Origin: Kiritimatiellia bacterium
Lineage (GTDB): Bacteria > Verrucomicrobiota > Kiritimatiellia > UBA8416
Assembly (NCBI GenBank): GCA_007129405.1
Contig: SKVN01000098.1
Location: forward strand, 1 to 34,591
Direction: 5' to 3'
Length of the DNA: 34,591 nucleotides
Part shown: positions 2,091-27,368 of the stretch, one piece after another
How positions within the stretch are numbered: the first letter of the stretch is position 1
Layout of the letters: every line of letters begins with the position of its first letter
The notes under the pieces: generated by a model
The model's database searches: none
Told to the model about the DNA's origin: nothing
Seen by the model: only the letters and a program-made list of their open reading frames with translations
Position numbers and translations under genes: made by a program

Positions 2091-2144
2091 GATTTGCTCC
2101 TTGTTGTACAGAATTAGAGGTTAATGGTATATTCGGGGTGATAA

Positions 2145-2277
2145 GATGATGTGGAGAAACTTTTTGAGGGATATATTTGCTGGAGGGACTCCTGTGCGTC
2201 CGTCTTCCAACCACCGCGACGAATCCCGGCGGCAGAGGACTGCCGCCCTCCAAAAAACAACTGAAGTTACAACCTAG
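2145..2277 (+). repeat. Composite repeat with degenerate head, GGCGGCAG hairpin body and canonical tail (copy D)
   Basis: GATGATGTGGAGAAACTTT at 2145, hairpin 2228-2247, TGAAGTTACAACCTAG 2262-2277. Confidence 0.65.
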
Positions 2278-16726: not shown

Positions 16727-16798
16727 GGTTTTGTGCCTTGTTGACCCAATGGACCTGATTGACGGGGGGTGTTTTGGAGAGGTGAGGATGTTGGTGAA

Positions 16799-16997
16799 GA
16801 TGATGCGCAGGTGTAACTTGTGTCGAAGTGCCGGGAACTCGGTTGAACGAGAACGGCGACGAGAACGGTGAACGATTTTCTTACTCGTAATCCGTTCTCG
16901 TCGCCGTTCTCGTCAAACGAATTGGGAAGCCTTCATTGTGTATATTGCGTTGGGAAAACCACAACATCTTGTGTTTAAAAATGAAGTTACAACCTAG
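16799..16997 (+). repeat. Composite repeat, CGAGAACGG palindromic body
   Basis: Head GATGATGCGCAGGTGTAACTT, perfect 22-bp inverted repeat 16847-16868/16892-16913, tail TGAAGTTACAACCTAG 16982-16997. Confidence 0.85.
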
Positions 16998-17018
16998 TAG
17001 GGGCACTTTGGGTGCCCA

Positions 17019-17150
17019 GATGATGCAGGCGCGAAACTATTTACACTTAATCGGAACCACTTGATCGTTTACACTTACTCGAAAGTCAGTGCTCATAATA
17101 TCGAGTAAGTGTAAGCGAGTAAGTGTTCAAACATTGAAGTTACAACCTAG
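17019..17150 (+). repeat. Composite repeat, 14-nt palindromic-array type (copy B)
   Basis: Head 17019-17039; direct units at 17043, 17057, 17071; inverted units at 17102, 17116; tail 17135-17150. Confidence 0.92.
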
Positions 17151-18220
17151 GGGGCGAGAGAGGAGGCGGGGATCCACCCACGGTTGCCATCGTAGTTGAT
17201 GAGCAGCCAGTTTGCGTGAGTTTCGAGAATACGTATGGTGGCTGTCGGGGGGATCGTAAAGGTGGATTTGCTTGTGGTGGCAGGAGCTAGATAGGCACGC
17301 GCCGCATCGGATAGCTGTACGCGACTCCGGCGCAACCCTCTGCTGCCGGGTATGAGGTCTTGTTCTGTCAGTTCCTCGCCTGCTTCAAGGTGTGAATCGT
17401 TTTTTTTATCTACATACTGCAAAGCGAACGGCCCGAATGTGTCGGTCTGATACTCGCCGGTTTGCGTGTTGAACCATACGAATGATAGGGCAGGAATATC
17501 TTGCACCCTTTCGTCCATGGGTACGACGGTTTGTGAGAAAACGTGTCGTCTTCTGCTATCTTGATCCGTAGTTGGCCTGACGCGATACGCACGCAGTTGT
17601 GGAGACGCCCCAATGGTTGGTATGGCATTTTCCGGGATCCAGCCATCCCCCTGTAGAATGGTCTTTACGGTTACGAGATCTCCAGCCTGGATTTCCAATG
17701 GTTCGGCAGCAATATCGATATCGAACTTTCCGATTACGCCAGAGAAATTGTCAGGTGCCGGCGGTAGTGGTTGCACGTCAATTATGACTTCCGGGACGCG
17801 TAAGGTTACGGGACGTTCTTCAATCGTGGAACCAAAGAAAGAGCGTATGCGTCGACGCGAGGTGAGTCTGACAACGGGTTGTAAAGATATCCGGGAGGAT
17901 TGCATGGGCCGAGCTTGTGCGCGGTAGCGTCTGCGTGTGACTTCATAGTCGCCGTCACGTTCTCGTTGCACGGCCAGCGCTTCAAAAGATCCGAGAATCC
18001 GCATGATATTGCGATCGGGAAGATTTGCCAGATCGGGCCTTGATGAAATATCGATATCACGGGTAATAATTTCCAGGGTCAACGTAATGGTCTCTTTTAG
18101 ATAGGGAGAGGGATTACTCACAGATAATCGGGCCTCTACGGCTGGAGGTGCATTTCCATATGCAGACAGGGAACATAGTGTGAGTAGTAATAGGAGTTTC
18201 GCGAACGGGTATTTGTTCAT
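17147..18220 (-). CDS. BatD-like protein with C-terminal SH3-like region
   Basis: Signal peptide, BatD-type beta domains, C-terminal TIRILETHANWLLINYDGNRGWIPASSLAP SH3-like; ATGA overlap with preceding gene. Confidence 0.7.
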   Translation of the reverse strand: MNKYPFAKLLLLLTLCSLSAYGNAPPAVEARLSVSNPSPYLKETITLTLEIITRDIDISSRPDLANLPDRNIMRILGSFEALAVQRERDGDYEVTRRRYRAQARPMQSSRISLQPVVRLTSRRRIRSFFGSTIEERPVTLRVPEVIIDVQPLPPAPDNFSGVIGKFDIDIAAEPLEIQAGDLVTVKTILQGDGWIPENAIPTIGASPQLRAYRVRPTTDQDSRRRHVFSQTVVPMDERVQDIPALSFVWFNTQTGEYQTDTFGPFALQYVDKKNDSHLEAGEELTEQDLIPGSRGLRRSRVQLSDAARAYLAPATTSKSTFTIPPTATIRILETHANWLLINYDGNRGWIPASSLAP

Positions 18221-20727
18221 AGGGCGTTCTCCTCATGATGCAATGCATAGATCCGTTGTATTTGTCTGCGCTGGAGTTGCCAATCTTGTCGACTTTGATG
18301 TTCGGCATACAGTGATGCTACGATGCTGATGGCAAGGAGCAGGAGCATACCCATGGTCGGCAGGATGAACCAGTTTATATGTCGGTATCGACGCCGGATG
18401 GTTATCCACAGCCAAAGCAGTGAGAATAAACTCGTGGCAATGGTAATGCGGTTTGGAATGGATGTGCGGTAATGCCAGAACAGGATACTACGAATCCAAG
18501 GGAGTTGAGCCGTTGGGTCGTTTGTGAGGTTGCGTTGTGCAATCAGCATGTTTCGGCGTGTGCTCCACGTGTTGGCCCCTCGCCGCTCAGCCCATTGGAG
18601 CAAGGGTAAGGCTAAGCTGGGTTGTTCGGCCAATAACAAAGCGGTTCCCAAATTATACAGCACAACCGGATGGTAATTCCCTTGATCAATTCGATCTGCA
18701 AGAGCATGGGCAACGGCTATGAATTCTTCTGGCGTTTGTGCACGCAGCAGGAGCAGGTTCGAGCGGCGTTCTTCAAACCGAGCGATCTGATCTGCCTGTG
18801 CTAAACATGTCAGCCCCGTGGTCAGCATGATCATAAAGCCAACTCCCAGTTTTCCAAGCATGTGTTTATAGAAGGGCATTTTTCGCGCGCGTTGCGCACG
18901 TGCAAGGGAATCGATGATCTTTTTGATGTGCGCTGCATCCGTTTTGTTTTGACCCGCATATGCAGTCTCTGTGAGGATTTCGATTACGGTTTCGATGTCG
19001 GATGCCGCCAGTCCCAGCCGCTGCAAATCCTGTCGCATTGCTTCAGTGTCTCCTCTTGCAAATGACTGCGTCAAGGTTGTCGTTAGATAGGTACGCAATA
19101 TGGTAACGGTATCACAATCGCTTCTCTGTAATTGCTGCATCGCGTTATCAAATGCGCGTTTGCGTTGCATGTATGCCTGTATTGCCGGAATGTGCTTGGG
19201 AACCCATTGTTTGATACATGCCAGCAGAAAGACCAAGGGGCCGAGCAGCAATAGGGGTATATGCAGAGCTGGTATGAAAAATCGTGCCGTGTCCATGCTG
19301 CGCACCCCGAAAGGAGCAGGGGGTAGATCGCCCGGAGGTGCGGTGAAGCGATGGCGCGCTTGAGCCCGTATGGGCAATCCCGAAATCATTTCATGTTCTA
19401 GATCTTCGGAAGGTGTGACGCGAATGGGAAGGGGGTCGCTTTGTACCGTTACGTAAGAGCGACTTTCTAGATCGAAATAGGCTATTTCGAGTGGGGGGAT
19501 TTCCCAGGTGCCTGCCTGACGAGGCCGGATCAAATATTCGAATCGTCTTCCTCCTGAGATAGATGAAGTTCTTATGGGCTCCGGCTGGATGCGAAAATCT
19601 GCCTCAAGGCTCGCAAGGGTTTCGGGGCGTGGGGATCTTATGCGATTGGCAGAACCATCGCCTGTTATGTCGATGGTGAGTGTGACGGGATCTCCCGCCT
19701 GGCATATTTGCGTGTCTAGAGACGTTTCCATGCTGAAGCGGCTTCCAGATGCGCCGATGAAGGTCGGAGGACGCCCTGTTCTTGGTGGGTTGCGGACTTG
19801 CACGGTTACCGGATCGCCGATGGCGTAGATCTCGGACTGTGCGGCATTCCCGTCGGGTTCTACTTGCGTGATGATATTGCCGTGGAAACGAACGGGACCG
19901 AAGGTGTAATCCCCTTCCCGGTCTGCTGACCATCGACTCTTTAGCTCGTAGCGAAAGTAATGGTTATCATCAGGATCTGTTACGCGTGGTAGGCGAAAGC
20001 GCGCTCTTTCTTCCCTGCCGAAAATCCCTCCAAAGGGATCCCGGCCTACGACACGATCATTGATGCGAAAGGATTCGCCTTCGCGGACTAAGATACGCTG
20101 CAATAATTGCGTAATGTTCTCGCTTTTGAGTCCCTCGCCGGGGTGGAGGTCCAAGTAGGGAATGCGTAGATGTGGAACCGTATGCATCGGGCTATGCGCA
20201 CGGAAGGGGGGCGGTAACTTGCGGATGCGTACAAAGAGCGTTACGTCGAATTCTTCGTCGACGATCACCGTGTTGGTAGGGGCAGATACCCATAGCTCTA
20301 CGTAAGATTGGATGGGAATCGATTTTACTTCCAGCGTGGGCGTATTCACGGGGATTGGGTTGCCATCAGGGGCCTCTAGTATGATCGGTCCTATAGCAAA
20401 GGTTCCCGTTTCATGCGGCAAGATGCGATAGGTAAAGGTTCGCCCGGTAAAGCGTGTTACCTGCTGCACGCCATTGACGATTCTTACGATTTGCTGGGAA
20501 CGGTCTTGCTGTCCGAGGAGCTCAATGTCTGCTGGCATAGCGCTGAGATCGGGCTCTCCAAATGAGGGTTGGTATCCATGGACGTGCAGAGTCAAATATG
20601 TCGGTTCGCCGAGAAAGATTTCGTCATAGGTTAGTTCAGCTTCCATACGAAGCAGTTGTTGTTCGGCCTGCAACGGGATCACGCATAGACTGCAGGCAAA
20701 TAATAATAGGTATAGGCGGTATCTCAT
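18217..20727 (-). CDS. BatD-family protein with C-terminal TPR/BatE-like region
   Basis: Signal peptide, BatD-type repeats (LTYDEIFLGEPTYLTLHVHG), TM helix, TPR-like NYHPVVLYNLGTALLLAEQPSLALPLLQWAERRG. Confidence 0.75.
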   Translation of the reverse strand: MRYRLYLLLFACSLCVIPLQAEQQLLRMEAELTYDEIFLGEPTYLTLHVHGYQPSFGEPDLSAMPADIELLGQQDRSQQIVRIVNGVQQVTRFTGRTFTYRILPHETGTFAIGPIILEAPDGNPIPVNTPTLEVKSIPIQSYVELWVSAPTNTVIVDEEFDVTLFVRIRKLPPPFRAHSPMHTVPHLRIPYLDLHPGEGLKSENITQLLQRILVREGESFRINDRVVGRDPFGGIFGREERARFRLPRVTDPDDNHYFRYELKSRWSADREGDYTFGPVRFHGNIITQVEPDGNAAQSEIYAIGDPVTVQVRNPPRTGRPPTFIGASGSRFSMETSLDTQICQAGDPVTLTIDITGDGSANRIRSPRPETLASLEADFRIQPEPIRTSSISGGRRFEYLIRPRQAGTWEIPPLEIAYFDLESRSYVTVQSDPLPIRVTPSEDLEHEMISGLPIRAQARHRFTAPPGDLPPAPFGVRSMDTARFFIPALHIPLLLLGPLVFLLACIKQWVPKHIPAIQAYMQRKRAFDNAMQQLQRSDCDTVTILRTYLTTTLTQSFARGDTEAMRQDLQRLGLAASDIETVIEILTETAYAGQNKTDAAHIKKIIDSLARAQRARKMPFYKHMLGKLGVGFMIMLTTGLTCLAQADQIARFEERRSNLLLLRAQTPEEFIAVAHALADRIDQGNYHPVVLYNLGTALLLAEQPSLALPLLQWAERRGANTWSTRRNMLIAQRNLTNDPTAQLPWIRSILFWHYRTSIPNRITIATSLFSLLWLWITIRRRYRHINWFILPTMGMLLLLAISIVASLYAEHQSRQDWQLQRRQIQRIYALHHEENAL

Positions 20728-20729
20728 GG

Positions 20730-23264
20730 TTACCAATCCCTGGCGCTTTCCTGCCGCTGAAGACGGCGACGACGTTCGTCGAGTAGTTCCTGATATTCCT
20801 GCGAACGCTGCTCTACTTGTTCGAGCATGGCATCTACATCAAAGGTGTCATCTTCCTCATCCTCCGGCTCTGGATCGTCGGGTTCATCTTCCGGATCTTC
20901 GTCGTCCATTTGGTCATCAGGCTCCGGTGGAGGCGGAAGCTGCAAGTCGGACTCTTCATCGTCCGGCTCTCCCTCTGGGGGTGGGGGCGGCGTGTCTGTT
21001 GGGTCGTCGTCTTGATCTTCTCTGTCTTCGGAATCTGAAGGAGGAGGTTTGGGTAAGATTTCCGAGAGACGGCGGAGTTTGTCACGCGCTTCTTCCTGGA
21101 CGGTGCGGGCGGACTCGATGTCATCGAGTTCGAGCATTTCTGCTGCCAGGCGCTGGAGTCGGGCTGCATCATCCGTCAGTGTATCCATTTCTGCGATCAA
21201 TTCGGGATCCGTGTCGGGAGGCGGCTGGTAGCGTTCGGCAAAGGTATCTGTTAGATTGGCGGCTTCGGTTTGCAATCGAGATAATGGCACGGGCGGCTGC
21301 GTTGTGTTGGCGGGGTCGCGTGCGATCGCATCCAGCCATTCTTGCTGCCGCAAGGACTCTGTGAGCATGGATTCAGGGCTTCCCCGTTCGCGCCATGCAT
21401 CATAGAGAGGGTGCCCGATTTCGGCTAGGTGTGTGTCTGTAAGGGGGCTAAGATCTTCTAGTGATGCCACTTGCTCTTCAAGTGTTTGTTGCTCGTCCAA
21501 AAGACGATTGAATTGTTCGGGGGGAATACCATCGGATTGCAAGAGGTGAGCAAGCGCAAGATATTGCTCTGCCAGTTCGTTACGTTCGCGCGCACGGTTT
21601 TGGAAGTGTTCGAGTCTTGCGGGACCGATGGGGGGTATCTCGTCGGATTTCCATTTGTCGTCTTGGCTGCGCTGTTTCTGCATCATATCCCAAGCTAGTT
21701 GTGCTGGGTCTTTGTCGGCATATCGTTCGAGAATATCAGCGAGGGTGGCCTCGCGGGCTGCCTGGGGCAGGATGGCATCCAGTTTCTGCAAGTCTTCTTC
21801 CGATGCAGCTTCCGCGGTTTGCTGCCAGTGTCTTTGCAGGCGTTGTGCGGCTTCCTGCCATTGTGAAACGCGTTCGCGGTAGCCTTCCACGCTTCCGTCT
21901 GCGGCACTTCTACCTTGTTCGAATGCCGCGATGGCACGTGCAAGATCAGCTTGTTGGATCGTTGGAAGCCGTTCGAGTAAGTTGACGGCTGTTTCTGTAT
22001 CTCCAGCTTGTAGGGATGCGATGGCAGCATTGTAACGATAGCGATCACGGAGACGCGCGGCTATATCGGGCGTATCGGCTGCTCGCAGATACAGTTGCGC
22101 TGCTTCTGTGAATTGGTTCTGTTGTTGCAGGTGCTGGGCCTGACGCGCGATGGCACGGTGCGATTGCCCGCTTTTGTTTTCCCCTGTTTCGCCAAATGCT
22201 GCGCCAGTGAAAAAGAGCATGATGATGGCGATATGTTGGATTCGAGCGTGTTTGCGGATGGGACCCTGCGTTAGGAAGCCCGCGATGAGAAGCAGAACGA
22301 TGGCCGGTAACAAAAAGTAGCTAAAGAGTTCGGTGTAATCGGAGGCTTCCATTGTGGTATAGGTGCGAGCTTCTACAGCACGGAGTTGCTCGCGGATGCG
22401 TTGCCCGAGAGTAATGGCTCCGGCGCCAGCGGTTTCAACGGGGATATAGGCACCTCCTGTCAGGCGGGCTAGGGTCACGAGCGATTCGTCTTCCAGTCGT
22501 GTGATTACCGGCTCTCCTTCAAAGAGGAATACGCCTTGCGGGCTATCCCGGTCCGGTATGGTTGATCCGGTGCGGCTGCCAATGCCGACGGTAAAGAAGG
22601 GAATGTTTCGTCGCGCTGCATCCTGCGCTGCTGAGATGGCCTCTCCCGCCAGATCTTCGCCATCCGATAAGAGGATAATGGCTTTGTGAGAAGGTGTGTC
22701 GTCATCAAAAATATCCAGTGCCATCCGGATGCCTGCTCCGATGTCGGTTTCACCTGCCGGAGCGCTGTCGATGGATACGCCCGCGATGGCTTGCCGGAGG
22801 AATCCTTGATCGGAGGTAAACGGGGTGATTCGGGTGGCCCGATAGCGGAACGCTACAATGGCCACACGGTCGCCGGGGCGTAATTCATCGAGGATGTCAA
22901 ACATATCTGCCTTTGCGCGTACGAGGCGGGAGGGCCTAACGTCATCGGCAAGCATAGAGCGTGAGACATCCAGCAGGAGTACGATGTCGCGTCCGCGGAT
23001 GGCTACTTTCTGCTCTTCCGGACGTGTGCTACGGGGGCCTGCAGCAGCTAGCAGCAGAAAAAAGAGCGCACCTGCAAGAGCTAACTCCTGAAACCATAGA
23101 AGCCGTTGATTGTCGGCAGGCAGTAGTTTTCCAGCAAGCAAAGATCCGGTGAAATGTAAACGTTTCTGTTGCTGCCTTCTCCGCAGAAAATGCAGTAACA
23201 GGCTCCAGAGGGGAACCAACCAGATCAGGTATAGGATCCATATGTTTGCAAATGAAAATCTCAT
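20730..23264 (-). CDS. VWA-domain protein fused to TPR region (BatB-BatC-like) with acidic/proline-rich tail
   Basis: DIVLLLDVSRSMLADD MIDAS, TPR helices, PPPPPEGEPDDEESD...EPEDEEDD tail; start at MRFSFANIW. Confidence 0.85.
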   Translation of the reverse strand: MRFSFANIWILYLIWLVPLWSLLLHFLRRRQQQKRLHFTGSLLAGKLLPADNQRLLWFQELALAGALFFLLLAAAGPRSTRPEEQKVAIRGRDIVLLLDVSRSMLADDVRPSRLVRAKADMFDILDELRPGDRVAIVAFRYRATRITPFTSDQGFLRQAIAGVSIDSAPAGETDIGAGIRMALDIFDDDTPSHKAIILLSDGEDLAGEAISAAQDAARRNIPFFTVGIGSRTGSTIPDRDSPQGVFLFEGEPVITRLEDESLVTLARLTGGAYIPVETAGAGAITLGQRIREQLRAVEARTYTTMEASDYTELFSYFLLPAIVLLLIAGFLTQGPIRKHARIQHIAIIMLFFTGAAFGETGENKSGQSHRAIARQAQHLQQQNQFTEAAQLYLRAADTPDIAARLRDRYRYNAAIASLQAGDTETAVNLLERLPTIQQADLARAIAAFEQGRSAADGSVEGYRERVSQWQEAAQRLQRHWQQTAEAASEEDLQKLDAILPQAAREATLADILERYADKDPAQLAWDMMQKQRSQDDKWKSDEIPPIGPARLEHFQNRARERNELAEQYLALAHLLQSDGIPPEQFNRLLDEQQTLEEQVASLEDLSPLTDTHLAEIGHPLYDAWRERGSPESMLTESLRQQEWLDAIARDPANTTQPPVPLSRLQTEAANLTDTFAERYQPPPDTDPELIAEMDTLTDDAARLQRLAAEMLELDDIESARTVQEEARDKLRRLSEILPKPPPSDSEDREDQDDDPTDTPPPPPEGEPDDEESDLQLPPPPEPDDQMDDEDPEDEPDDPEPEDEEDDTFDVDAMLEQVEQRSQEYQELLDERRRRLQRQESARDW

Positions 23265-23269
23265 GATGA

Positions 23270-24316
23270 CTACAGGACGTTTCTCTTGATGTTGACATTC
23301 ACAAGTGCACACGCGCACAGCAGAATCAGCGCCGTGAGGATCAGGTTGCGGTAGTGCTCCTCAAAGCGTTCCAAGATTTGTTGCTGCACGGGTGTGGTTT
23401 CCAATTCGTTAATGGCTTCGAGAGCTCGACTGAGGCCCTCCTCGTCGAGCGTGTTGAAATATACGCCCCCCGTCAGGTCGGCAATATCTTGCAGGGCTTG
23501 CTCGTCAATTTCAATATAGGCATAGCGGATGGACTGCCGGCCTGCGGCATCGGTAATGCGGACGGGGGCATGCCCGGTTGTGCCGACGCCAATGGTATAC
23601 ACGCGCAAGCCGAGTTCTTTGGCAATGCGAGCTGCTTGCATGGGCTCAAGTATGCCTGCGTTATTGAGGCCGTCACTCAGGAGTAAGATGATACGGGATT
23701 CGGTTTCGGCCTCACGCAGTCGCGAACTGGCCAGTGCCAGGGCATCTCCGATCGCTGTCATGCGCTCGTCTTCGTTGACAATAGCGCCTGAAGATGGGTC
23801 GTGGAACGGTGGGGGAATATCAACGGTATCCAGAATTTGTCGCAGCGCATTGTGATCCAGTGTAAGCGGGGAAAGAACACTTGCATAGCCACCGAATGAG
23901 ATCAGTCCGATGAGGTCATCGGGGCGATAATCGATAAATTCGGAAAAGACATCTTTTACCACATCGAGTCGTGTGAGGTATTCGACGCCGTTTTCGGTTT
24001 CACGAGATAGGTCTAAAGCTTCCATGGAACCGGATACATCGATGACCACCATAATAGAAATGGCGTTGGCTTCTCGTCGAAACTCGGAAAGGTTCCGTCT
24101 GGGGCGCGCCATGGCCAGCACAAGAAGCAGCAACACAACGAGAAAGATCCATGGCATAAGATAGTAGAGAAGCATGCGCCAGGATGACTTGTGTCGGGAG
24201 ATCGACTGCGTTCTTGCATAGGGAATAGCGGGGCGTATGCGCGGCAGGATCATGCGACCGCACACGCCGATAACGGGTATCAACAACCAGAGCCATATGG
24301 GGTTGGCAAAGTGCAT
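23270..24316 (-). CDS. VWA-domain protein (BatA-like)
   Basis: IMVVIDVSGSMEALD MIDAS motif, N- and C-terminal TM helices. Confidence 0.88.
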   Translation of the reverse strand: MHFANPIWLWLLIPVIGVCGRMILPRIRPAIPYARTQSISRHKSSWRMLLYYLMPWIFLVVLLLLVLAMARPRRNLSEFRREANAISIMVVIDVSGSMEALDLSRETENGVEYLTRLDVVKDVFSEFIDYRPDDLIGLISFGGYASVLSPLTLDHNALRQILDTVDIPPPFHDPSSGAIVNEDERMTAIGDALALASSRLREAETESRIILLLSDGLNNAGILEPMQAARIAKELGLRVYTIGVGTTGHAPVRITDAAGRQSIRYAYIEIDEQALQDIADLTGGVYFNTLDEEGLSRALEAINELETTPVQQQILERFEEHYRNLILTALILLCACALVNVNIKRNVL

Positions 24317-24317
24317 G

Positions 24318-25319
24318 CTAGTGCTTTTCCTCCGTAAAAGTCGTTTCGTCCTCTGCGAGATAATTGCGAGCTGTTTCTATTGTGTCTTGAATCGCACGTT
24401 GGGTGGGGGTCCATGCCGCAAATTTAACCAGATCGGCAGATTCCAGAAATTCTTGCAGGCGTTCCACCACGGCAGGCTTGAAGGCTGGGCGTTTGGCAGC
24501 AGCTTCCAGAAATTCAGGGGTGGTAAGTTCCGGGGCGCGAATGCCATGTTGCCGCTCGATGTAGGTTCGAATAATACCGGTGATCGCAAAGTAGAATTCC
24601 TTGAATTGGCCTTTAGCAGGAAGATCCTTGACAAGCAGTTGATCGAGTTCATAGCGTGCCCGTTCAGCGGGTGACATGCGCATTACTTCCATTTTTCGTT
24701 TCAGCTTGCTTGCCAGGAATACACCGCCGAGCAGGATAAGCAGCAGGGCAATAGAGACAAGAGCCCATCTTATGATTTCCGCTGGTGTTGGTGGAATATA
24801 CACAGGTTCCGGTGTTGCTGTGAGACTGGCGGCATCCACATCGTCAAGGCGATGGGAGGGAGGACGGATCGCGGGGGTTATAAGATATTGTGTTTCTCCC
24901 TCAATATCGTTGTTCTGGGTTATGGCAAACAACATGGGTGCGATACGATAATGGCTGCCAGGAATGGGTGTAAGTCGGAGTATCGTTTCGCTGATTTGGT
25001 ATCCTGCTTGATCGGTTGCGTCGGGTGGTGACAAGATTGCTGTCACCTCGAAACCCTCGATCGCCATTTCCACGTTCGGAAAATCAATTTGGAGGCCTGC
25101 CGGGTAGCGCGTGAGGAGCGTGAGAATGGCATCGTGGCGTGGGTCCATCATGCCGGGGGATAATGTCAGGGTGATGGCGACGCCGTGCTCCTCCACGGTA
25201 TGAACAATATCAGGCACATCGGTTATATCCGGTTTTTGGGGACGCTGACCACATCCGGTTGTTAGTAGCAATCCGGTCAGCAAAGCAACATTACTATATA
25301 ACCATGTTTTTCTATGCAT
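24318..25319 (-). CDS. Lipoprotein / DUF4381-like membrane protein of Bat operon
   Basis: LLLTTGC lipobox, internal TM helix, cytoplasmic helical C-terminus, operon position. Confidence 0.6.
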   Translation of the reverse strand: MHRKTWLYSNVALLTGLLLTTGCGQRPQKPDITDVPDIVHTVEEHGVAITLTLSPGMMDPRHDAILTLLTRYPAGLQIDFPNVEMAIEGFEVTAILSPPDATDQAGYQISETILRLTPIPGSHYRIAPMLFAITQNNDIEGETQYLITPAIRPPSHRLDDVDAASLTATPEPVYIPPTPAEIIRWALVSIALLLILLGGVFLASKLKRKMEVMRMSPAERARYELDQLLVKDLPAKGQFKEFYFAITGIIRTYIERQHGIRAPELTTPEFLEAAAKRPAFKPAVVERLQEFLESADLVKFAAWTPTQRAIQDTIETARNYLAEDETTFTEEKH

Positions 25320-25322
25320 GGA

Positions 25323-26213
25323 TTATCCTCTTTTTTGGCGTGCTTGACGTTGCATGAAGAGACGGCGAACGGCATCGATAATCGAGATATCTGTTGTGAG
25401 CGGAACGGTATCAATGCGATTCCGGCGAAACATGCGCAGCAGTGATTCTTGATGTTCATGCACCTCTCGATTGTGAGCAGCCCGAAACTGCGGATTGGAT
25501 GTATCTACCAGATACAGTTCACCGGTTTCCGCATCTTCTAGTTCGAGTAAACCTACATCGGGAAGCTTGTCTTCATGCGGATCACTGATGGGGCAGCAAA
25601 TCAAGTCATGTCGACGAGCTGCAATACTGAGGGCATCCTCAAAGCCTGTATCGATAAAATCCGATACCAGAAATACGACGGCTCTACGTTTTTGTACCTG
25701 CGCGAGGAAGTCGAGAACGCAGCGAATGTTCGTGCCTTCGCGTGTTTCCTCGGCCGCCAGAACTTCGCGCACGATGCGCAGTACGGCTTTGCGTCCTTTG
25801 CGAGGCGGGATATAGGTGCGAATGCGGTCGCTAAAGAGCATGAGCCCCACATTGTCCTGGTTTTTTACGGCGGATAGGGCCAGCAAGCAGGCCAGTTCGG
25901 CGGCGGTTTCCGCTTTGCTGCGCTGGGTTGATCCGAATATCTGTGAGCCAGAAACATCTACCGCAAAGAGAATGGTCAGCTCGCGTTCTTCCGCAAATCT
26001 TTTGATATAAGGATGGCCCATTCGAGCGGTTACATTCCAATCTATAGAGCGTACGTCATCGCCGTAGGTATAGGCACGAACTTCATCGAATTCGATTCCC
26101 TGTCCTTTAAAAGCAGAATGGTACGCCCCCGTCAAACGGTTATCGACCAGACGGCTGGTGATAATCCGTAGCCGGGCAACTTGGCGCATGAGTTCTTTTG
26201 TGTCGAGCGGCAT
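25323..26213 (-). CDS. DUF58-domain protein
   Basis: GQGIEFDEVRAYTYGDDVRSIDWNVTARMGHPYIKRFAEERELTILFAVDVSGS motif. Confidence 0.93.
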   Translation of the reverse strand: MPLDTKELMRQVARLRIITSRLVDNRLTGAYHSAFKGQGIEFDEVRAYTYGDDVRSIDWNVTARMGHPYIKRFAEERELTILFAVDVSGSQIFGSTQRSKAETAAELACLLALSAVKNQDNVGLMLFSDRIRTYIPPRKGRKAVLRIVREVLAAEETREGTNIRCVLDFLAQVQKRRAVVFLVSDFIDTGFEDALSIAARRHDLICCPISDPHEDKLPDVGLLELEDAETGELYLVDTSNPQFRAAHNREVHEHQESLLRMFRRNRIDTVPLTTDISIIDAVRRLFMQRQARQKRG

Positions 26214-26237
26214 AAGATCTCCACAAAAAGATTAGAT

Positions 26238-27224
26238 TTAAGGGACGGGGATTTCGCCGAGAATATGCGTGATGATACTGTCGCTGGTGCATTCTTCGGC
26301 TTCAGCTTCGTACGTCAATATGACACGATGACGCAGTACGTCCGGGGCCATTTCCTTTACATCTTGGGGGGTAACGTAGGCCCTGCCGCATAGCATGGCC
26401 CGCGCACGTGCCGCCATTTGGAGGAAGATGCCAGCCCGGGGTGAAGCGCCATACGATATCTGATGATCGATTGGGATACCGAATTGCGATGGGTTGCGCG
26501 TGGCCAACACGATATCGAGAATATAATCGGTAACCTTCTCATCGCAATATATTCGCGGTACCAGTTCTCGGCATGCTGCGATTTGTTCCGCGGTCATGGC
26601 AGGTTTGATGCTTTCGACGGCTTTGCCATCGAACCGATGCATGATTTCGCGTTCCTCTTCTTTGGTGGGATAGCTCACTTTACACATGAGCATAAAGCGG
26701 TCTACCTGCGCTTCCGGTAAGGGGTAGGTGCCTTCCTGTTCGATGGGATTCTGTGTCGCCAAGACCAGAAAAGGAGAGGGGAGTTTGTAGGTGCTGTCCC
26801 CGATCGTGACCTGACGTTCCTGCATCGCCTCGAGAAGCGCAGATTGGACTTTAGCGGGCGCCCGGTTGATTTCGTCGGCTAGCAGGATGTTGGTGAAAAC
26901 AGGCCCCTGTCGTGGAAGGAACTCGGATTTTGCGGGGTCATAGATCATGGTGCCAACGATGTCGGCAGGGAGTAAGTCTGGAGTAAAAGAAATGCGCTGG
27001 AAGGGTAAGCCGAGGGCATCGCCCAGGGATTTAACGGCTGTCGTTTTCGCCAACCCGGGGACCCCTTCGATGAGGATGTGTCCATCACTGATCATGGCAA
27101 TCAATAGAGAGTCGAGTAGGTGTTGTTGTCCAACGAGAACCTTGCGTACTTCTTGGCGCAAGTTTTCGATGGTAGAAGCCATTTGGGTTATTTCTTTTTC
27201 CCGTTTTTCCATGTCTGGTTGCAT
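26238..27224 (-). CDS. MoxR-family AAA+ ATPase
   Basis: GHILIEGVPGLAKTTAVKSL, FTPDLLPADIVGT, LLADEINRAPAKVQSALLEAMQERQVT, QNPIEQEGTYPLPEAQVDRF; AAGGAG RBS before ATG at 27224. Confidence 0.95.
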   Translation of the reverse strand: MQPDMEKREKEITQMASTIENLRQEVRKVLVGQQHLLDSLLIAMISDGHILIEGVPGLAKTTAVKSLGDALGLPFQRISFTPDLLPADIVGTMIYDPAKSEFLPRQGPVFTNILLADEINRAPAKVQSALLEAMQERQVTIGDSTYKLPSPFLVLATQNPIEQEGTYPLPEAQVDRFMLMCKVSYPTKEEEREIMHRFDGKAVESIKPAMTAEQIAACRELVPRIYCDEKVTDYILDIVLATRNPSQFGIPIDHQISYGASPRAGIFLQMAARARAMLCGRAYVTPQDVKEMAPDVLRHRVILTYEAEAEECTSDSIITHILGEIPVP

Positions 27225-27300
27225 ATCAAGCTCCTTGTTTCGTGATTGTAAAATCGCAGCATAGCTTTGTGCATAAACGTCGTATTGGGTTTTTCGCTCC

Positions 27301-27368
27301 ATAACGCACCAGCTATACCCATGCACGTACAATATACGCGCGACTGGTCGCGTATATTAGTGCGTTAT
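27301..27368. other. Nested inverted repeat between parB and moxR
   Basis: Outer arms ATAACGCAC 27301-27309 / GTGCGTTAT 27360-27368; inner AATATACGCG 27331-27340 / CGCGTATATT 27349-27358. Confidence 0.85.

Follow-up and report, generated by a model that had tools for sequence, protein, structure and literature searches.

Composite repeats in the window

The window, by which we mean the whole analysed stretch of 34,591 nt, is contig C45 of a MAG of 1.97 Mb in 203 contigs, 76% complete (G000, here also called the own assembly). It holds several composite repeat units with a constant head and a constant tail around a body that differs between classes (Table 1). Two units stand in a row at 16777–17150 and are followed by a minus-strand ORF. 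A further minus-strand cluster (18217–27332) encodes proteins that by eye resemble MoxR ATPase, DUF58, von Willebrand-domain and BatD-like proteins, as in a Bat/aerotolerance-type operon. The heads and tails listed in a preliminary description of this DNA are all present in their places.

Table 1. Repeat units of the window and their parts
Feature	Position	Strand	Basis or remark
Next tandem unit after 118–288, cut by contig end	1–117	−	left end 97–117 (CGATCGCGCTCG hairpin type), head 77–96, class B body 1–76
Class A unit	118–288	−	left end 267–288, head 247–266, body 134–246, tail 118–133 (two changes); target TAG in minus-strand reading at 291–289
Class C unit (GGCGGCAG hairpin)	2118–2277	+	degenerate head from 2145, tail 2262–2277 exact; left boundary uncertain, after TTAG 2114–2117 or a few bases further
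Unit 1 left end, degenerate, boundary uncertain	16777–16798	+	no clear TAG or hairpin
Unit 1 head, GATGATGCGCAGGTGTAACT	16799–16818	+	start as in the preliminary description
Unit 1 body, class B, CGAGAACGG palindrome	16819–16981	+	clustering
Core of unit 1 body	about 16839–16923	+	also in other frames in related genera
Unit 1 tail, ending in CTAG, the target of unit 2	16982–16997	+	exact tail match
Unit 2 left end, GGGGCAC-TTTGG-GTGCCC	16998–17018	+	directly after unit 1 TAG (16995–16997); folds as hairpin
Unit 2 head, GATGATGC-variable-GAAACT	17019–17038	+	exact pattern match; coupled to tail; the right stem has its 5' foot at the end of this head
Unit 2 body, class A, 14-nt periodic palindrome	17039–17134	+	clustering (21 units in class); fold z = −6.0
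Unit 2 tail, TGAAGTTAC-AACC-TAG	17135–17150	+	exact tail match
ORF to the right of unit 2	17147–18220	−	stop codon is CTA 17147–17149 in unit 2 tail (right ORF d = −4)
Head and class A body, cut by contig end	34469–34591	+	pattern match

Copy number and coupling of the ends

A BLAST search of the own assembly with the 391-bp double unit of the window as query gave 81 matches. When up to three mismatches were allowed, the head was found 47 times in the own assembly compared with 1 occurrence of a reversed control pattern, and the tail 64 times compared with 12. The preliminary description had pointed to independent occurrence of head and tail as the result that would speak against a composite element. 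The scan of the own assembly shows coupling instead: a same-strand head lies 40–350 bp upstream of 42 of the 54 tails with upstream room, compared with an opposite-strand head for 1 of the 54, and a same-strand tail lies downstream of 44 of 62 heads, compared with an opposite-strand tail for none of the 62. The units are dispersed in more than 50 copies through one genome. Many MAG contigs stop inside units (e.g. C20, C93, C140, C154, C160 and both ends of the window), and the copy numbers in the own assembly are therefore lower bounds.

Architecture and boundaries of the units

About 21 nt ahead of the head, a TAG-like triplet is directly followed by the start of the unit, which opens with a small left hairpin. 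The head and tail positions given in the preliminary description are correct, but the extent that it assigned to the units was too short by this segment. The layout of a unit is (Y)TAG, left hairpin, GATGATGC-variable-GNAACTT, body and TGAAGTTAC-NNNN-TAG. In tandems the distance from the start of a tail to the start of the next head is nearly constant (37–42 bp, mostly 37–40 bp), and the same intervening segment also precedes many isolated heads, which identifies the apparent gap as the left end of the next unit. The junction is constant in 27 tandems, and the continuation always lies at the TAG of the previous unit. As each unit ends in YTAG, a new target, direct tandems follow; the occurrence of two units in a row, also noted in the preliminary description, is explained by one unit inserting behind the TAG end of another. 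An identity with integron attC sites (tandem hairpins) was rejected because the order of GTT and AAC at the junction is opposite to that in attC, GTT coming first, and cassette ORFs are absent.

The left hairpin has three sequence types (GGCACTTGGGNNGCC, CCCCGGGGTGCCCC and CGAGCGCGCTCG) and is recognisable before 44 of 74 heads, the other 30 being without one. At the opposite end the fixed part of the tail is TGAAGTTAC-NNNN-TAG, so that the unit end reads ...TTAC-NNNN-TAG, where NNNN is in most units AACC (18 units), TGGC (8), AGCT (5) or AGTC (4); several of these variants are used within each large body class. The body is enclosed by a right stem of GNAACTT and AAGTTAC, most units having an A-A mismatch in it. 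When unit 1 (16799–16997; z = −6.2) is folded, this stem together with AGGT/ACCT closes the structure. The complementarity of the variable parts of head and tail does not exceed that of shuffled pairs, 17% of shuffles reaching the observed level. Accepted units measure 109–316 bp from head to tail, too short for a transposase gene, and roughly 130–340 bp as whole units.

Empty sites and the insertion target

Comparison with G001, a sister species of the same genus (68% complete), provided two precise empty sites. At the first, G001 (L160) reads CTCAGATAG-CCTGTCC while G000 reads CCCGGATAG, a unit array, TGGCTAG and then the flank CCTAACAG; the ends of this array lie on different contigs, with C93 and C140 stopping inside it. 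At the second, G001 (L195) reads CCGGTCTGATGAGGTGATG (CCGGTCTGATGAGG) and G000 reads CCGGCTTAG, a unit ending in TGGCTAG, and then GAGGCGAGGG (GAGGCG); here the upstream gene's TAG stop codon is the target. In both cases the insertion lies exactly 3' of TAG or of the aligned stop codon, and there is no target duplication. At two other places a unit is missing from a gap that is otherwise diverged: L038 compared with L193 of G001, and the window unit 2118–2277, for which the orthologous gap in the genus relative G002 is about 35 bp compared with 223.

TAG occupies the left boundary in 12 of 30 isolated units, compared with about 12% expected by chance when 8 neighbouring offsets are searched, and most of the others have TCG, GAG or CAG there. 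With ORFs called mechanically, so that the counts are indicative, 4 of the 30 isolated units have as their left triplet the stop codon of an ORF with 80 codons or more, and in 11 units a minus-strand ORF to the right ends exactly in the terminal CTAG, as does ORF 17147–18220 of the window. The neighbouring genes have all orientations, and units often abut gene ends.

The presence of TAG at both junctions of many units can also be read as a 3-bp duplication, which would suit a DDE-type MITE that has degenerate terminal inverted repeats and duplicates 3–4 bp of its target, with YTAG on either side. We regard this origin as improbable. A comparison of left and right ends in 51 units showed no terminal inverted repeats (the left has its hairpin followed by GATGATGC, the right TTACNNNNTAG), the bases before TAG usually differ between the two sides, and some of the triplets differ as well (TCG, GAG or CAG on the left, TAG on the right). 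A longer duplication, NNNNTAG, was rejected since at nearly every site the left heptamer is not the same as the right one.

Bodies under constant ends

The preliminary description had reported that the bodies differ by class, and clustering of the 51 head-to-tail units bears this out: there are 6 multi-member classes (21, 11, 4, 3, 3 and 2 units) and 7 singletons, about 13 unrelated groups. Several bodies are palindromes of short tandem motifs, some with a second palindrome in the loop. A right subterminal stretch like CCACAACATCTTGTATGTAAAA recurs across otherwise unrelated body classes. A CRISPR-like array was considered and rejected because the "spacers" are themselves repeat families.

Strong folding (z < −3 against mononucleotide shuffles in 43 of the 51 bodies) and the frequent abutment of gene ends would be expected of a structured regulatory or terminator RNA family that is immobile and kept at gene ends by selection. 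We give this explanation very little probability, as precise empty sites occur beside the same genes, the neighbours have all orientations, the bodies are unrelated, Rfam yields no match in the window at the gathering score, and the units are nearly restricted to one genus. The modular regulatory element that the preliminary description offered as one option has found no positive evidence either, the gene context being mixed and Rfam without a match. Its other option, a non-autonomous mobile element, is favoured by the precise empty orthologous sites in the sister species, the recurrent TAG at the left junction and the lack of coding capacity.

Body B is abundant in other genera of the family (G003 and G004), where it stands in other frames, and frame and body are consequently separable. 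In G004 the frame is a diverged relative, with AAGTTATAGGCAAG followed by a CCACCCGGGGGTGGG hairpin and GGTAACT; the surroundings in G003 are unrelated, some of them repeated, with a frame ending in TTTTGACACTAC in several copies. A second carrier-like family containing body B was seen in the same bacterial family, in a repeated frame ending in ...TTTTGACA(C/G)TAC (L175, L178 and L180 of G003; L190 of G004), and some copies of this frame begin near CTGTCAAAAGTTGACAG.

Four orthologous sites are occupied in both genomes compared by units with different bodies (L075/L107, L039/L156, L026/L166 and L048/L167), and the tails that can be compared differ too; L127/L041 and L033/L143 were left out because the aligned stretches are non-homologous. 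In-place exchange of the body within an inherited unit was rejected as an explanation because the tail tetranucleotides also differ (AACC compared with AGCT at L075/L107 and L039/L156). Separate insertions are more likely, and repeated insertion at preferred sites fits the doubly occupied sites better than body exchange.

Y1 proteins and candidate mobilising enzymes

PF01797 detects six Y1 proteins, four of them in G000 and the others in G001. All six were inspected and are RAYT-like, most with GGGGACAG-type flanks, apart from one IS200-like protein in C174, which matches the profile only from position 25 and looks truncated. None of the six genes in these two genomes (76% and 68% complete) lies between unit ends, no TnpB was found in G000, and the fetched stretches around heads and tails of the own assembly contain no head–tail pair that encloses a transposase ORF. 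The mobilising enzyme, or a parent element, may therefore be missing from these incomplete genomes or may not have been assembled in them.

The RAYT-like proteins have about 340–370 aa; their genes, in C129 (L137) and C195 (L136) of G000 and in C152 (L138) and C174 (L139) of G001, are unrelated to the head–tail ends. Motifs of the GGGGACAG type have been described as flanks of subclass 2.1 TnpA-REP (PMC6006769). In C23 of G000 (L135, about 1270–2120) the gene of a 229-aa Y1 protein lies between two near-identical repeat copies with GGAGCCTGGCGATCCCGGGCT...GGGAACGCCACGCTCCAGCGTGGCC. A RAYT about 120 bp before a tail in C152 of G001 was rejected as a candidate partner, as that tail belongs to a deleted class B unit.

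These proteins raise the question of REP/BIME-like repeats spread by a domesticated RAYT (TnpA-REP), in which xTAG plus hairpin would be the recognised unit and the rest a mosaic between palindromes. REPs consist of a GTAG-type tetranucleotide followed by a hairpin and are common in intergenic DNA (PMC8266576), and RAYT-like proteins are present in both G000 and G001. However, the units are repeated directly and not inversely (42 same-strand compared with 1 opposite-strand), and what borders the RAYT genes is not unit ends but other motifs, in most cases the GGGGACAG known from subclass 2.1 (PMC6006769). We consider this reading unlikely, though somewhat less so than the DDE-type MITE.

Strand bias

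Third-position GC skew taken in the orientation of the element is positive in G000 for both same-strand ORFs (0.24) and opposite-strand ORFs (0.15). Counted by locus, 29 are positive and 8 negative, which gives p = 0.0004 when 1:1 is expected and p = 0.004 when the expectation is the YTAG ratio of the strands. The corresponding counts of 4:6 in G001 and 10:7 at other related loci do not clearly reproduce the bias of G000. Replication direction is here deduced from GC skew alone; if the G-rich strand is the lagging-strand template, the 29:8 ratio is as expected for single-strand insertion into that template, for which we take it as moderate evidence.

Distribution

The exact left-end/head pattern was found in 28 stretches among 85,488 species genomes, several of them chance matches in coding sequence. 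Most matches that show the full structure are from sediment MAGs, chiefly PVC bacterium T3Sed10_236R1 and Kiritimatiellae CSSed162cmB_463R1. From the sample names we take these sediments to be those of soda lakes. Among 31 genomes of the order, the strict head pattern occurs in 3 (20 matches in G000, 4 in G001 and 1 in G013). In the collections searched, the units are almost confined to soda-lake Kiritimatiellae. Contigs with units are also catalogued under unrelated phyla, L108 as Cryomorphaceae and L106 as Acetothermia. They stem from sediment samples that also yielded Kiritimatiellae MAGs and are probably misbinned.

Proposed mode of spread

We think it probable that the units are non-autonomous mobile elements working like the IS200/IS605-derived PATEs, moved as single-stranded DNA by a Y1 (HUH) transposase that would be supplied in trans. 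Insertion would take place directly 3' of (Y)TAG, leaving the target on the left and bringing the unit's own terminal YTAG on the right, so that no target duplication would arise. The terminal YTAG could in turn be the target for further units, which would insert behind it and build tandems of the same orientation. It could also provide the stop codon for a gene that runs towards the unit from the right, in which case insertion at gene ends would be harmless. The variable bodies may be palindromic repeats in their own right, which the right stem carries in its loop.

More tentatively, and with less than even confidence, we envisage gene-less mobility in two layers. A carrier would insert at TAG and offer its right hairpin as a docking place; many unrelated palindromic repeats would reach the hairpin loop by a separate route, after which the carrier would spread them. 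If so, body B, with its several frames in related genera, would be such a cargo.

Relation to known systems

The PATEs of Haloquadratum walsbyi have no terminal inverted repeats, carry palindromes near their ends, cause no target duplication and contain no gene, and they are regularly hit by SMR-A repeats of about 110 bp inside their palindromes (PMC3119063). The units likewise lack terminal inverted repeats, a gene and, at the two precise empty sites, a target duplication; they have other palindromic repeats inside a near-terminal palindrome, a conserved terminal oligonucleotide that marks the target, and heterogeneous sequences. As to palindromes near the ends, a left hairpin is recognisable before 44 of 74 heads, and the right stem has an A-A mismatch in most units. 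They differ in being bacterial (Kiritimatiellota), in their sequences, in forming same-orientation tandems, and in having at least 12 unrelated bodies under one pair of ends; moreover, no IS605-type relative with unit ends was found in G000 or G001 (76% and 68% complete). Of the known architectures that of PATEs is the nearest, and the units probably work like them, but we do not claim that they are PATEs.

With IS200/IS605 elements (IS608, ISDra2) the units share subterminal hairpins, insertion 3' of a short target, the lack of a duplication and an orientation bias, the last in one genome here. They differ in having neither tnpA nor tnpB, and guide/cleavage complementarity was not detected; because a transposase with unit ends was sought and not found, membership is not claimed. 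REP/BIME/REPIN repeats with RAYT resemble the units in the xTAG beside a hairpin, the intergenic location and the many copies, whereas the units are larger and directly oriented, and different motifs flank the RAYTs of these genomes. BOX elements of Streptococcus pneumoniae, which have been linked to an IS with inverted repeats, are also composite repeats with a constant head (boxA), a constant tail (boxC) and a variable interior, but that interior is a variable number of one module (boxB) (PMC3049150), while the interiors here are mutually unrelated.

Three points are new here: the lineage in which the units occur, how many unrelated bodies share constant ends, and the evidence that YTAG directs the growth of tandems. 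The closest description that we found is haloarchaeal; the present repeat family is bacterial. Its copy number (over 50 in one genome), its exact empty sites, its simple YTAG target and its many body classes make the spread and nesting of palindromic repeats directly testable. The units may show how a gene-less element can serve as a carrier for other palindromic repeats, and the 11 units whose terminal CTAG provides the stop codon of a neighbouring gene suggest a harmless route of insertion at gene ends.
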